A stretch of DNA of 39,321 nt, taken from positions 1 through 39,321 of the forward strand of contig JANXBF010000011.1 in the NCBI GenBank assembly GCA_025057615.1, written 5' to 3'. Made by a program: the position numbers and the translations under genes. Shown here piece by piece: positions 34,700 through 38,856 of this stretch. Position 1 is the first letter of the stretch. Each line of letters opens with the position of its first letter. The DNA is from Candidatus Calescibacterium sp. GTDB taxonomy: Bacteria > DRYD01. Below the pieces are notes generated by a model. It was not told where the DNA came from. It searched no databases and saw nothing but the letters and a program-made list of their open reading frames with translations.

Positions 34700-35398
34700 T
34701 TAATCAATATTGTCCATAAGATTTTTTATCTTTTTCTTTATCCTCTGGATAGCATTATCAACAGATTTGGGAGAAACATTAATCTTTTTCCCAATTTCAG
34801 AATAAGTTAATCCCTGAGCTCTGAGCTTAAGTATTTCTTTCTCTCTATGAGTTAAGTTAGATAATAAAGATTCTTTAATCCTATTTTTTTCAATAAAATC
34901 TATTATGGTATCTTCTATTGAGGTTTCTTGATAAGAGCCTTGTATAATTCTCGAAGGAGAGATATAATCGTAGAGACTTTTTTCTCCAGAATCTTCATCA
35001 AACAAATTCGATTCCAATGATATTGGATTCCTCAATATTCTTGCTTTGTTTCTGTTTGAAGATTTTATAGCTGTGGTTATTTGGCGTTGAACACATAAAT
35101 TAACAAAATTGAAAAAGCTGCCCTTGGTTTTATCAAAATCCTCAACAGCCTTAAGAAAACCTATATACGCTTCTTGAATTATATCTTCTCTTTCCCCTCC
35201 AGGTATATAGAAAGGTATTACTTTGGAAAATAGGAATTTTGAGTATCTTTGAATAAGAACTTTAATAGCTTCTTTATTGCCGGCTTTAGATAATTCAACA
35301 AGTTCTTCATCAGTAAGTTTTCCCAATTCGTTATTTGAAAATATACTATCTGTTATGTTTTTATCTATTTTTTTATATTTAGTATCTTTTTTCTTCAT
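34700..35398 (-). CDS. Sigma-70 family RNA polymerase sigma factor, SigH-like subfamily
   Basis: LSKAGNKEAIKVLIQRYSKFLFSKVIPFYIPGGEREDIIQEAYIGFLKAVEDFD (region 2), CVQRQITTAIKSSNR, LTHREKEILKLRAQGLTYSEIGKKINVSPKSVDNAIQRIKKKI (region 4). Confidence 0.9.
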   Translation of the reverse strand: MKKKDTKYKKIDKNITDSIFSNNELGKLTDEELVELSKAGNKEAIKVLIQRYSKFLFSKVIPFYIPGGEREDIIQEAYIGFLKAVEDFDKTKGSFFNFVNLCVQRQITTAIKSSNRNKARILRNPISLESNLFDEDSGEKSLYDYISPSRIIQGSYQETSIEDTIIDFIEKNRIKESLLSNLTHREKEILKLRAQGLTYSEIGKKINVSPKSVDNAIQRIKKKIKNLMDNID

Positions 35399-35781
35399 TT
35401 CTTATTTTTGATAATTATCCTGTGATCAAATGTTTTTCTTTCATCATATTCAAAATACTCATCCATTCTAACTACATCTTGCTGGTTATAAATTGCAAAT
35501 TCATATGTATTTTCCATTTCTATTACTTTGGTTGGACATATCTGTTCACACAGTCCACAGAATATACATGCACTGACATTGATTTCAAATTTTTCTACTA
35601 CTGTTCTACCTAAACTATCTTGCAAAACCTCCATTCTTATAGCTTTGACAGGACATATTTGAGCACAATATCCACAGGCAATACATACCCCACTTTCACA
35701 ACTCAGGCATCTTATACCCTCTTCTATACTGTAGTCATTAATGTCTACCTGATTCTTTACATATTCTGGTAATTTAGCCAT
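35395..35781 (-). CDS. 2x[4Fe-4S] ferredoxin resembling the C-terminal cluster domain of NuoI
   Basis: CIACGYCAQICPVKAI and VEKFEINVSACIFCGLCEQICPTKVIEMENTYEFAIYNQQDVV. Confidence 0.9.
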   Translation of the reverse strand: MAKLPEYVKNQVDINDYSIEEGIRCLSCESGVCIACGYCAQICPVKAIRMEVLQDSLGRTVVEKFEINVSACIFCGLCEQICPTKVIEMENTYEFAIYNQQDVVRMDEYFEYDERKTFDHRIIIKNKK

Positions 35782-35796
35782 AAATCCCCCTTTTCT

Positions 35797-37458
35797 CTAA
35801 ACAGCCACCGATTTTTTATATACTTTATGAACATTAAGAGGTCCCAGTATTCTTAAAAAGTCATTACTCAAAACAGGAGGAACGCTATTGGTTAAGTAAT
35901 AATGAACTTTTTCAGCTGTTCTATTACCACTTGCTAAGGCGACTATAGCTGGTTGAGGACCATAACATGCTTCACCAGCAGCAAAAACCTTTGGCCTACT
36001 AGTTTGACCAAATCTATAAACAAAACCATTTACCATTGTATCAAATCCATCAACCACTATCTCACCTCTGCTACCTACAATATCTTTGGGAACAAAAGGA
36101 ATATCTATATCTCTTGAAACAGCCAATATTATAGTATCACATGGTATAACAAATTCTTCTGAGGTTCTAATTATTTTTTTTCTCCCATTTGGAAGTAAAG
36201 GACCATAAACACATTTTGCAACTTTTAAACCTTTTATATTATTATTTTCATCAACAACAACTTCAAAAGGCATAACTTGGCAAATAAATTCTATGTCATC
36301 ATCTTCTTCGGCTTCCACTTTTTCCTCTTCGCTTACTGGTATGTCTTCTCTAGCTAATATATCAACTATTACCACTTTATCAGAAAATACTTTTTTACAA
36401 GTTCTTGCGGCATCTATTCCAGTTCCTCCACCACCTATAACAACCACTTGACTTCCTATTTTATAACTTCTTATACCAAGATTCCAATCTTCCAAAAACC
36501 ATTCAGCTTGAATGATATTAACCTTTTCAGCATTTTTCAGATTAAGTTTTCTTGGTTTAGTAGCACCAACAGCAATAACAACAGCATCGTAATTATCTTC
36601 TAATTCACTAAATAGTATACCACATGGTTCCAAATGATTAATCTGTTCATTATAATTCTGTAAATCATTAAAAGAAATAACCTTACTGTATTTATCCTTT
36701 TCATCCTCAGAAATGACACTAACATTATAGAATATTCTACCATTTTCAGTAAAAACTATGAGATTTTCATATTCCTTATTCATTAGATCTTTATCCAATC
36801 GGAAGAAAGCAACGCCAGAGTAAAGATAACCTCCACAAAAATTGTATTTTTCGAATAGGTCAACCTTATGTCCAAACCTCAATAATCTGTGAGCTGCGGC
36901 AATTCCAGCAGGTCCAGCACCTATAACAGCAATTCTCTTGTTGGTCGGTTCAGAAACAATCGTATATTTAACAGTATCTCTATTTTGATAATAGTTCATT
37001 ATATTATATTCACTGATCGCTTTCTTTATCAATCTAATAGCTATGGGTTTATGATCCTGAACTCCCCTACTACACGTTGTCTCACACGGAGCGGTACAAA
37101 GATTACCAAAACAAAAGGCAACTGGATTATTGACACTCTCTTCACTAAGAGATTTAATGAAGTTATTTTCTCCAGCTAACATAACGTAACCTCTGGCATC
37201 AACATTAGCAGGGCATCCCCTAACACATGGCGGTAAATTGAAGGAAAAATTTAGATACTTCGTTCTTTCGTATATTGTTTCTTTGGTATTAAAAGCTCTA
37301 ACTCTAACCTTGCCTCTCCAACGTGAAAAGGGTTCCCTTATACTTAAGGGATAATTGATAGTATAAATAGGTTCCTTCAAAAAATACTTATACGTTATAT
37401 TTAACCCTTCTATTAACCTTCTGAGAGAATCAGCTAAAAAATTTAAACTACCTAACAT
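35797..37458 (-). CDS. GltD-like NAD(P)H/FAD oxidoreductase with a NuoI-like N-terminal segment
   Basis: N-term LRRLIEGLNITYKYFLKEPIYTINYPLSIREPFSRWRGKVRVRAF; then PPCVRGCPANVDARGYV...FCFGNLCTAPCETTCSRG, RIAVIGAGPAGIAAAHRL, VVVIGGGGTGIDAARTC. Confidence 0.88.
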   Translation of the reverse strand: MLGSLNFLADSLRRLIEGLNITYKYFLKEPIYTINYPLSIREPFSRWRGKVRVRAFNTKETIYERTKYLNFSFNLPPCVRGCPANVDARGYVMLAGENNFIKSLSEESVNNPVAFCFGNLCTAPCETTCSRGVQDHKPIAIRLIKKAISEYNIMNYYQNRDTVKYTIVSEPTNKRIAVIGAGPAGIAAAHRLLRFGHKVDLFEKYNFCGGYLYSGVAFFRLDKDLMNKEYENLIVFTENGRIFYNVSVISEDEKDKYSKVISFNDLQNYNEQINHLEPCGILFSELEDNYDAVVIAVGATKPRKLNLKNAEKVNIIQAEWFLEDWNLGIRSYKIGSQVVVIGGGGTGIDAARTCKKVFSDKVVIVDILAREDIPVSEEEKVEAEEDDDIEFICQVMPFEVVVDENNNIKGLKVAKCVYGPLLPNGRKKIIRTSEEFVIPCDTIILAVSRDIDIPFVPKDIVGSRGEIVVDGFDTMVNGFVYRFGQTSRPKVFAAGEACYGPQPAIVALASGNRTAEKVHYYLTNSVPPVLSNDFLRILGPLNVHKVYKKSVAV

Positions 37459-37477: not shown

Positions 37478-37496
37478 CCCTCCTAAGTGTACTTAG
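37478..37496 (-). other. Short hairpin (CCTAAG/CTTAGG) overlapping the nuoH stop region
   Basis: Minus strand TTCCTAAGTACACTTAGGAG: CCTAAGT-AC-ACTTAGG. Confidence 0.4.
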
Positions 37497-38856
37497 GAAC
37501 ATTTTTATACTTATTTGACAATTTTATATTTTTGAGAGATGCTAAATAAATAACTACAGCAAATATAATCCAGGAAAATAAGGGAATAAACACATTTTGA
37601 CTCTTAAATAGCAATACATCAACAGAGGCGAGTAACATGTGTATTAAAGTTATAGGTATAAAGGCTTTCCATGCCAAGTCCATCAAATGATCTATTCTTA
37701 TCCTTGGATAGGTCCATCTGAAAAACATTATCAATCCAACAATCAAGAAAGTTTTAAAAATGATCCAGATGAAATTATCATTTACTGCTAATATAGATTC
37801 ATATATTCCCCAACTCTGCAAAACAGGGGAGATAGCATTAAGCAAAGAATGAGGAATAAGAGAATACCCTCCCAAGAATATTGTGGCTATAATAGCACTG
37901 TTGAAGAACAAATATCCATACTCTGCAAGATAAAAAAGAGCAAAAGCCATACTACTGTATTCAGTTACAAATCCGGCAACAAGTTCTGACTCAGCTTCTG
38001 GTAAATCAAAAGGAGCCCTGTTATTCTCAGCAACCATAGACCACAGGAATATTATAAACATAAGTGGTTGGTAAAACACTAGCCAAAAATAAGTATTCTG
38101 AAAATTCACTATATCAACAATTTTAAAACTACCTGTGAATACCGTAACAGATAAAAAAGACAAAAGAAGAGGTATCTCATAGCTCAGCATTTGGGCCACT
38201 GTTCTCAAACCACCAAGAAGAGAATATTTATTATTAGAAGCCCAAGCAGCAATCACAAGAGACAAAACCATATAACTTGAGACAGCAAAAATGAACAATA
38301 ATCCAACATCTAACTGATTCAATAAGATATAGTTATTTGAAAAAGGAAACATTCCAAAAGCTATCACCACAGTGACAAATGCCAAAACAGGAGACAAAAT
38401 AAACAGGAAAGGATAAGAACCCTGAGGAACCATTATTTCTTTCTGAATAAGTTTAATAACGTCAGCAATAGGTTGGATTATTCCTCCCAGCCACATATTT
38501 TTTGATCCAGCTTTAAGAAGAAAAGGAATATTTATTAGAGTTGGTCCCATCCTACCCTGAATCTTTGCAGACAGCTTTCTCTCTATCCAAACATTAACTA
38601 TAACACTTACCATTAATACAGTAATGATAATAAGTGTTCCTATGACAGAAGAAAAAACCAGCCAAGGTACGGTTCCAAATCCTTTCCAAAAACCACCGTT
38701 TATTCCCAACAAATTATTAACGAAATTCAGAACTCCAAACTTATTAAGAAGCAAATAAAATGGTAAAAATAGAAAAATCAATATAAAAGAAACCAGAAAA
38801 TAGAAAACCAATGTTTTTAAAGTAAAACTGATAAACCTGAGAATATCATTTTTCAT
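37483..38856 (-). CDS. nuoH: NADH-quinone oxidoreductase subunit H-like protein (NuoH)
   Basis: VWIERKLSAKIQGRMGP, QPIADVIKLIQKE, VAENNRAPFDLPEAESELVAGFVTEYSSMAFALFYLAEY, FRWTYPRIRIDHLMDLAWKAFIPITL. Confidence 0.96.
   Translation of the reverse strand: MKNDILRFISFTLKTLVFYFLVSFILIFLFLPFYLLLNKFGVLNFVNNLLGINGGFWKGFGTVPWLVFSSVIGTLIIITVLMVSVIVNVWIERKLSAKIQGRMGPTLINIPFLLKAGSKNMWLGGIIQPIADVIKLIQKEIMVPQGSYPFLFILSPVLAFVTVVIAFGMFPFSNNYILLNQLDVGLLFIFAVSSYMVLSLVIAAWASNNKYSLLGGLRTVAQMLSYEIPLLLSFLSVTVFTGSFKIVDIVNFQNTYFWLVFYQPLMFIIFLWSMVAENNRAPFDLPEAESELVAGFVTEYSSMAFALFYLAEYGYLFFNSAIIATIFLGGYSLIPHSLLNAISPVLQSWGIYESILAVNDNFIWIIFKTFLIVGLIMFFRWTYPRIRIDHLMDLAWKAFIPITLIHMLLASVDVLLFKSQNVFIPLFSWIIFAVVIYLASLKNIKLSNKYKNVPKYT

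Follow-up and report, generated by a model that had tools for sequence, protein, structure and literature searches.

The electron source of a complex I without the standard NuoEFG arm is an open question (PMC11238625), and it is raised in a particular form by a locus in which a GltD-like flavoprotein begins like NuoI and is followed by a ferredoxin that ends like NuoI. It was asked whether the two genes together stand in the place of NuoI, and whether the flavoprotein would then be the electron input of the complex.

The locus and the two pieces of NuoI

The window, i.e., the whole stretch of DNA analysed (39,321 nucleotides), is the entire contig C2 of a 1.4 Mb MAG that is 84% complete, so that the locus lies at a contig end. 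On the minus strand, the order is nuoH, the GltD-like flavoprotein gene, the ferredoxin gene, and a sigma-factor-like gene; the preliminary description had placed both genes directly after nuoH, and its coordinates and ORFs were correct. The genes and the NuoI-like parts of their products are as follows:

37483..38856, minus strand: nuoH, directly upstream of the GltD-like gene, 24 bp before it (PF00146, E 1.7e-99)
35797..37458, minus strand: GltD-like flavoprotein with the N-terminal part of NuoI, 553 aa (ORF call, Pfam, orthologues)
37300..37431, minus strand: NuoI-like segment, residues 10-53 of the GltD-like protein, with amphipathic helix, YP motif and RWRG (hhalign, decoy test, joined-protein test)
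35395..35781, minus strand: 128-aa ferredoxin that carries the iron-sulfur part of NuoI (highest-scoring NuoI match of its genome; hhalign)
35458..35694, minus strand: NuoI-type two-cluster core and NuoI-type C-terminal tail, ferredoxin residues 30-108, the predicted N6a and N6b (hhalign; blastp)

Orthologues of the GltD-like protein with 76-97% protein identity were found in five other MAG records (L010-L014), where the order nuoH, gltD-like, ferredoxin, sigma-factor-like gene is kept, the adjacency to nuoH being present in every copy read. In all six copies, the ferredoxin gene is preceded by a ribosome-binding site of its own, and the reading frame at the junction differs between them, so that the flavoprotein and the ferredoxin are encoded by two genes. 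One gene interrupted by a stop codon was considered, because in the window the TAG and the 15 bases after it keep the frame, but was rejected because that frame is not conserved and a ribosome-binding site precedes the ferredoxin in every copy. An assembly error was likewise rejected, the layout being identical in several separately deposited MAGs. As a separate observation, NuoH is 457 aa long (37483-38856), with the NuoH domain starting from residue 74 and an extended N-terminus that carries an apparent extra membrane helix; its length is similar in all relatives (453-461 aa).

The start of the 553-aa protein had been described as the N-terminus of NuoI, a comparison set beforehand as a refutation test, and profile search, hhalign and joined-protein score bear this out. 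When a profile of residues 1-56 made from the six orthologues was run against 719 ORFs of the compared loci, the top non-self matches were NuoI (best E 1.9e-5), with NuoI making up eight of the nine lowest-E non-self matches and one decoy interleaved at E 0.031. In profile-profile comparison, residues 10-53 aligned with NuoI columns 7-49 (probability 94%, E 1.2e-7, 30% identity), and this NuoI-type N-terminus is strongly conserved among the orthologues. The likeness of the 128-aa protein to the C-terminal part of NuoI was equally upheld, hhalign placing ferredoxin residues 30-102 on NuoI columns 56-134 (probability 99.2%, E 7.6e-20, 42% identity) and blastp giving 39% to a NuoI over residues 33-108. 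Against TIGR01971, the ferredoxin alone matched positions 41-116 only (78.9 bits), while both pieces joined in silico matched the NuoI model over positions 1-116 of 121 with 103.2 bits; with the first piece scrambled as a control, the score was 82.0 bits and the match again covered positions 41-116.

The elements of TIGR01971 are accordingly present on two proteins, the N-terminal anchor (KP-x-T, YP, R-F/W-R-G) on residues 10-53 of the GltD-like protein, and the two 4Fe-4S motifs with the tail after the second on ferredoxin residues 30-102. The insertion in NuoI comes after the RWRG segment and before the first cluster motif. As the pair is encoded by two genes with no continuous NuoI chain, and its joined score of 103.2 bits is below the TIGR01971 cut-off of 113, it would work like NuoI and yet falls outside regular membership of that family. 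At the level of sequence, the split of NuoI with a GltD module inserted is real and confirmed, and there is good support for a GltD-type module at the place of NuoI. A chance resemblance or an assembly artefact, for which the shortness of the N-terminal match could be adduced, is hardly conceivable: the same arrangement recurs in several separately deposited MAGs, the profile, decoy and scrambling tests contradict such an origin, and the ferredoxin has its own ribosome-binding site with a non-conserved junction frame.

Cluster motif and nucleotide site of the GltD module

The GltD-like Cys domain with NAD(P)H and FAD domains that the preliminary description had named was recovered as Fer4_20 and FAD/NAD(P) domains, with the following parts:

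37003..37239, minus strand: Fer4_20 (DPD/GltD-type Cys domain), residues 74-152, with C78, C82, C121, C125, C129 and K145 and without the RCxxC half of the motif (Pfam, Cys positions, StnC alignment)
35887..36942, minus strand: FAD and NAD(P)H Rossmann domains, residues 173-524, with GAGPAG at 180, GGGGTG at 342, and VDIL at 365-368 instead of VYRR (Pyr_redox_2, alignments)
35698..35712, minus strand: RCLSC (C25 and C28 of the ferredoxin), the displaced half of the GltD cluster motif (Fer4_20 score test)

The best family match of the GltD part was PRK12771 (NF009410), with 261 bits, and the joined pair matched it end to end with 305.7 bits, against a cut-off of 516; the joined pair also aligned full-length with a PRK12771 protein encoded beside nifJ (L118). 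The EEGIRCLSCESG linker, which had been called typical of GltD-like ferredoxin tails, does match the tail of PRK12771-type proteins. Residues 233-281 of the GltD-like protein (36616-36762) include about 30-50 extra residues that are absent from the PRK12771, PRK13984 and NuoF-GltD relatives.

The Fer4_20 match of the Cys domain starts only at profile position 29-30. The missing part holds RCxxC, from which, as in dihydropyrimidine dehydrogenase, half of the first-cluster ligands normally come; the aligned solved relatives show the motif itself. When the RCLSC segment of the ferredoxin was put ahead of the GltD Cys domain, the Fer4_20 score rose from 43.5 to 55.4 bits (scrambled control, 42.4), and with the same rearrangement the score of a PRK12771 protein went from 61.8 to 93.7 bits. 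Given the gains in both, the displaced motif is a property of the PRK12771-type group; a displacement of RCxSC is also visible in NfnA (9n5u), and an RCMRC stands at the C-terminus of the L122 fusion described below. In the present family, each half of the motif is on a different protein and a cluster shared by the two is predicted, so that one [4Fe-4S] cluster may bridge the GltD-like protein and the ferredoxin. AlphaFold models of the joined pair (tethered by read-through of the in-frame TAG) and of the ferredoxin alone had mean pLDDT of 44 and 37, respectively, probably owing to shallow alignments, and neither was used.

Both Rossmann motifs, for FAD and for NAD(P)H, are intact and show no variation. 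In Rossmann folds, an acidic residue at the end of the second strand favours NADH over NADPH. At this position, all six copies read DIL or DLL, the Asp being invariant, where the PRK12771 relative and the solved Stn and Nfn proteins read YRR; this replacement, a single motif, suggests that the donor is NADH, and the FAD module of the GltD-like protein probably oxidises it. GltD-like units have been described generally to pass electrons from NAD(P)H to a second protein via [4Fe-4S] clusters (PMC8097209). K145 aligns with K170 of StnC, in which the cluster next to the FAD is held by three cysteines and Lys170 and the flavin is non-bifurcating, while the bifurcating NfnB has a Glu where StnC has the Lys (PMC10482914). 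Bifurcation at the GltD flavin was considered and rejected, the Lys ligand being of the StnC kind.

The nature of the donor may be read differently, with reduced ferredoxin entering at the cluster region instead of, or besides, NADH, and the GltD flavin exchanging with NAD(P)H. PRK12771-type relatives indeed adjoin genes of pyruvate:ferredoxin oxidoreductase (L118) and [FeFe] hydrogenase (L119), and the use of ferredoxin has been proposed for the NuoEFG-less complex I of other bacteria (PMC11238625; PMC6349859). However, a pure ferredoxin role leaves a flavoprotein with intact and invariant nucleotide-binding motifs unexplained, and the lysine ligand resembles that of the non-bifurcating StnC rather than the Glu of bifurcating NfnB (PMC10482914), so that this reading is judged quite improbable.

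The remaining complex I genes and the possible electron inputs

A canonical nuoI, the presence of which elsewhere had been put forward as a check, was not found with the NuoI model in the six available genomes of the family, i.e., the 84% complete genome of the window and five others. The best match of the NuoI model in each of the six was this ferredoxin, always without roughly the first 40 positions. The case for the absence of another nuoI is strong through the agreement of six genomes, short of proof as the genome of the window is incomplete. The subunits A, B, C, D, H and J-N of complex I are present in the window's own genome, where A, D, J and L-N were checked, and NuoB, NuoC and NuoK matches were obtained in all six; NuoD scores 437 bits as NuoD, carries GPQHPSTHG, and is of the quinone type. 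Rather than forming one operon, the complex I genes of this genome (G000) are scattered over at least six separate places: nuoA-B on C44, nuoC on C21, nuoD on C11, nuoJ-K and nuoL on C22, nuoM-N on C20, and nuoH on C2. No NuoB, NuoC or NuoK match was obtained in the nearest outgroup genome (G006).

The likeness of the GltD part to PRK12771 would also fit a soluble NAD(P)H:ferredoxin oxidoreductase of that kind, which had merely borrowed NuoI sequence and come to lie beside nuoH by chance. Such an enzyme is very improbable given the strong conservation of the NuoI-type N-terminus, an otherwise complete complex I for which no other NuoI was found, the NuoI-type C-terminal half and tail of the ferredoxin, and the adjacency to nuoH in all copies read.

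A less probable arrangement, and the main reservation about a GltD-type replacement of NuoI as the electron input, is one in which a conventional module of NuoE, NuoF and a short HoxU-like NuoG is kept, with the GltD-like unit as an additional point of electron entry or exit. It is based on two genes present in all six genomes, one NuoF-like, the other NuoG/HoxU-like, of 243-261 aa and with N1b-, N5- and N4-type motifs; the short NuoG is present even in G005, where no hydrogenase-type NuoG was found, and in G004, NuoE lies beside NuoF (L040). However, the NuoF-like and short NuoG-like genes are unlinked to nuo genes, the short NuoG scores 235 bits as HoxU versus 133 as NuoG, and the NuoE-NuoF pair of G004 adjoins what appears by eye to be the beta subunit of a 2-oxoacid:ferredoxin oxidoreductase, suggesting another job. 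The GltD-type module may, as the preliminary description supposed, alter or add to the usual NuoEF input.

Some of these genes are of interest in their own right. The G004 stretch (L040:5681-8617), with the apparent 2-oxoacid:ferredoxin oxidoreductase beta gene, then NuoE and NuoF, is a possible NADH-linked ferredoxin oxidoreductase unrelated to complex I. No linked NuoF accompanies the short HoxU-like NuoG of about 243-248 aa (L066:10181-10912, with orthologues in L069, L071, L075 and L076). A [NiFe] hydrogenase-like cluster (L042:5804-9298) has a 512-aa HoxU-like subunit with an additional molybdopterin-enzyme-type 4Fe-4S domain (PF04879).

The insertion of a GltD-type module into the NuoI of a respiratory complex, as first proposed, is thus supported at the sequence level, and the reading we consider rather probable is that the two genes form a single functional unit that replaces NuoI, with a GltD-type NADH module feeding N6a/N6b directly. 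It is drawn from the NuoI halves on two proteins, the lack of another NuoI match, the complete remaining Nuo set and the conserved nuoH-gltD-ferredoxin order, and likewise from the end-to-end PRK12771 match, the permuted Fer4_20 motif, the K145/K170 correspondence, the change from YRR to DIL/DLL, and the published behaviour of GltD-like units (PMC8097209). The NuoI-type N-terminus (the helix and the RWRG segment) would hold the GltD-like protein in the place of NuoI, and the FAD of this protein would oxidise NADH. From the FAD, electrons would pass to a first cluster held by C82, C121, C125 and probably K145, from there to a second cluster held by C78 and C129 with C25 and C28 from the ferredoxin, then to N6a and N6b in the ferredoxin, to N2 in NuoB and to quinone, and NuoH and J-N would couple this flow to the pumping of ions. 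Conserved motifs are the basis for the steps within each protein; the links between proteins, as well as the physical assembly, the shared cluster, NADH as the donor, and the direction of flow, are inferred. A further-reaching proposal, made tentatively and with a good deal of doubt, is that the entire NuoE, F and G arm has been functionally replaced by a GltD-type flavoprotein inside NuoI, with a cluster shared across the break; if true, the wire from flavin to quinone would be much shorter.

Distribution and comparison with known systems

In a survey with the N-terminal profile at 1e-6 over 386 genomes from about 327 genera (an earlier survey at 1e-60 was too strict for distant relatives), the NuoI-like part was matched, among the matches listed, only in the six genomes of the family; none of the listed matches outside them starts before profile column 37, and almost all start at the Cys domain. 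Close relatives alone were returned by a pattern scan over 84,980 species genomes, a type of scan that reaches no further than these; no relatives were found in the viral contigs scanned, and no description of this split of NuoI was found in open-licence papers. Complex I-like enzymes with a GltD module are not new in kind (L121, L122); as far as the tools show, what is new is the module inside NuoI, the split into two genes, and the cluster motif displaced between them. This small family of uncultured bacteria seems to carry a complex with an electron entry point unlike the textbook one. That a whole enzyme should interrupt a core subunit of complex I, which is then also split, would be unusual. 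As the donor appears to be encoded within the NuoI gene itself, the question of the electron source becomes directly testable.

Among known systems, PRK12771 has its domains in the same order as the joined pair from end to end, with RCLSC likewise displaced and two clusters at the C-terminus, an order that is spread here over two genes; it differs in being one chain, without the NuoI N-terminus or the NuoI tail, and in having the YRR motif. PRK13984 (NF010590) likewise joins a NuoI-type N-terminus, a dicluster and a GltD module, but its single chain has an uninterrupted NuoI and then GltD, with RCLGC at its usual site before the Cys domain, whereas here GltD lies inside NuoI, two genes are used and RCxxC has been displaced. 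Against this family, the joined pair reaches 190 bits, the cut-off being 946. A one-chain NuoI-GltD fusion in G019 (L121:7541-9370) reaches 720 bits with PRK13984 and lies in an Mbx-like operon, where its neighbours were read as B, C, D, H, L/M-like and Mrp-like subunits. In G017, a protein of 636 aa (L122:14529-16439) has the NuoF iron-sulfur domain PF10589 and a GltD module ending in RCMRC, which replaces the normal NuoF flavin domain, inside an otherwise normal nuo operon, and looks like another GltD-fed complex I. It resembles the present case in a GltD module as the probable flavin input of complex I; the differences are the fusion of GltD to the iron-sulfur end of NuoF, an intact NuoI and NuoG, and the retention of YRR. 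Together with L121 and L122, the locus provides evidence that complex I-like enzymes have acquired a GltD module in more than one way. Such other combinations, the permuted and probably shared cluster motif, and the NADH-type residues had not been noticed in the preliminary description.

StnC and NfnA share the GltD domain with PPCxxxCP, with a Lys at the position of the proximal-cluster ligand K170 of StnC, and NfnA also has an RCMSC stretch downstream of its GltD domain; they are, however, parts of soluble transhydrogenases with NuoG-like domains and not of complex I. The NuoEFG-less complex I of other bacteria, for which one study found no dedicated electron donor conserved across all carriers, resembles the present one in the full membrane arm and Q-module and in a donor that, by operon, is not the textbook NuoF (PMC11238625). 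NuoI is intact there, whereas here the predicted donor module is built into NuoI.
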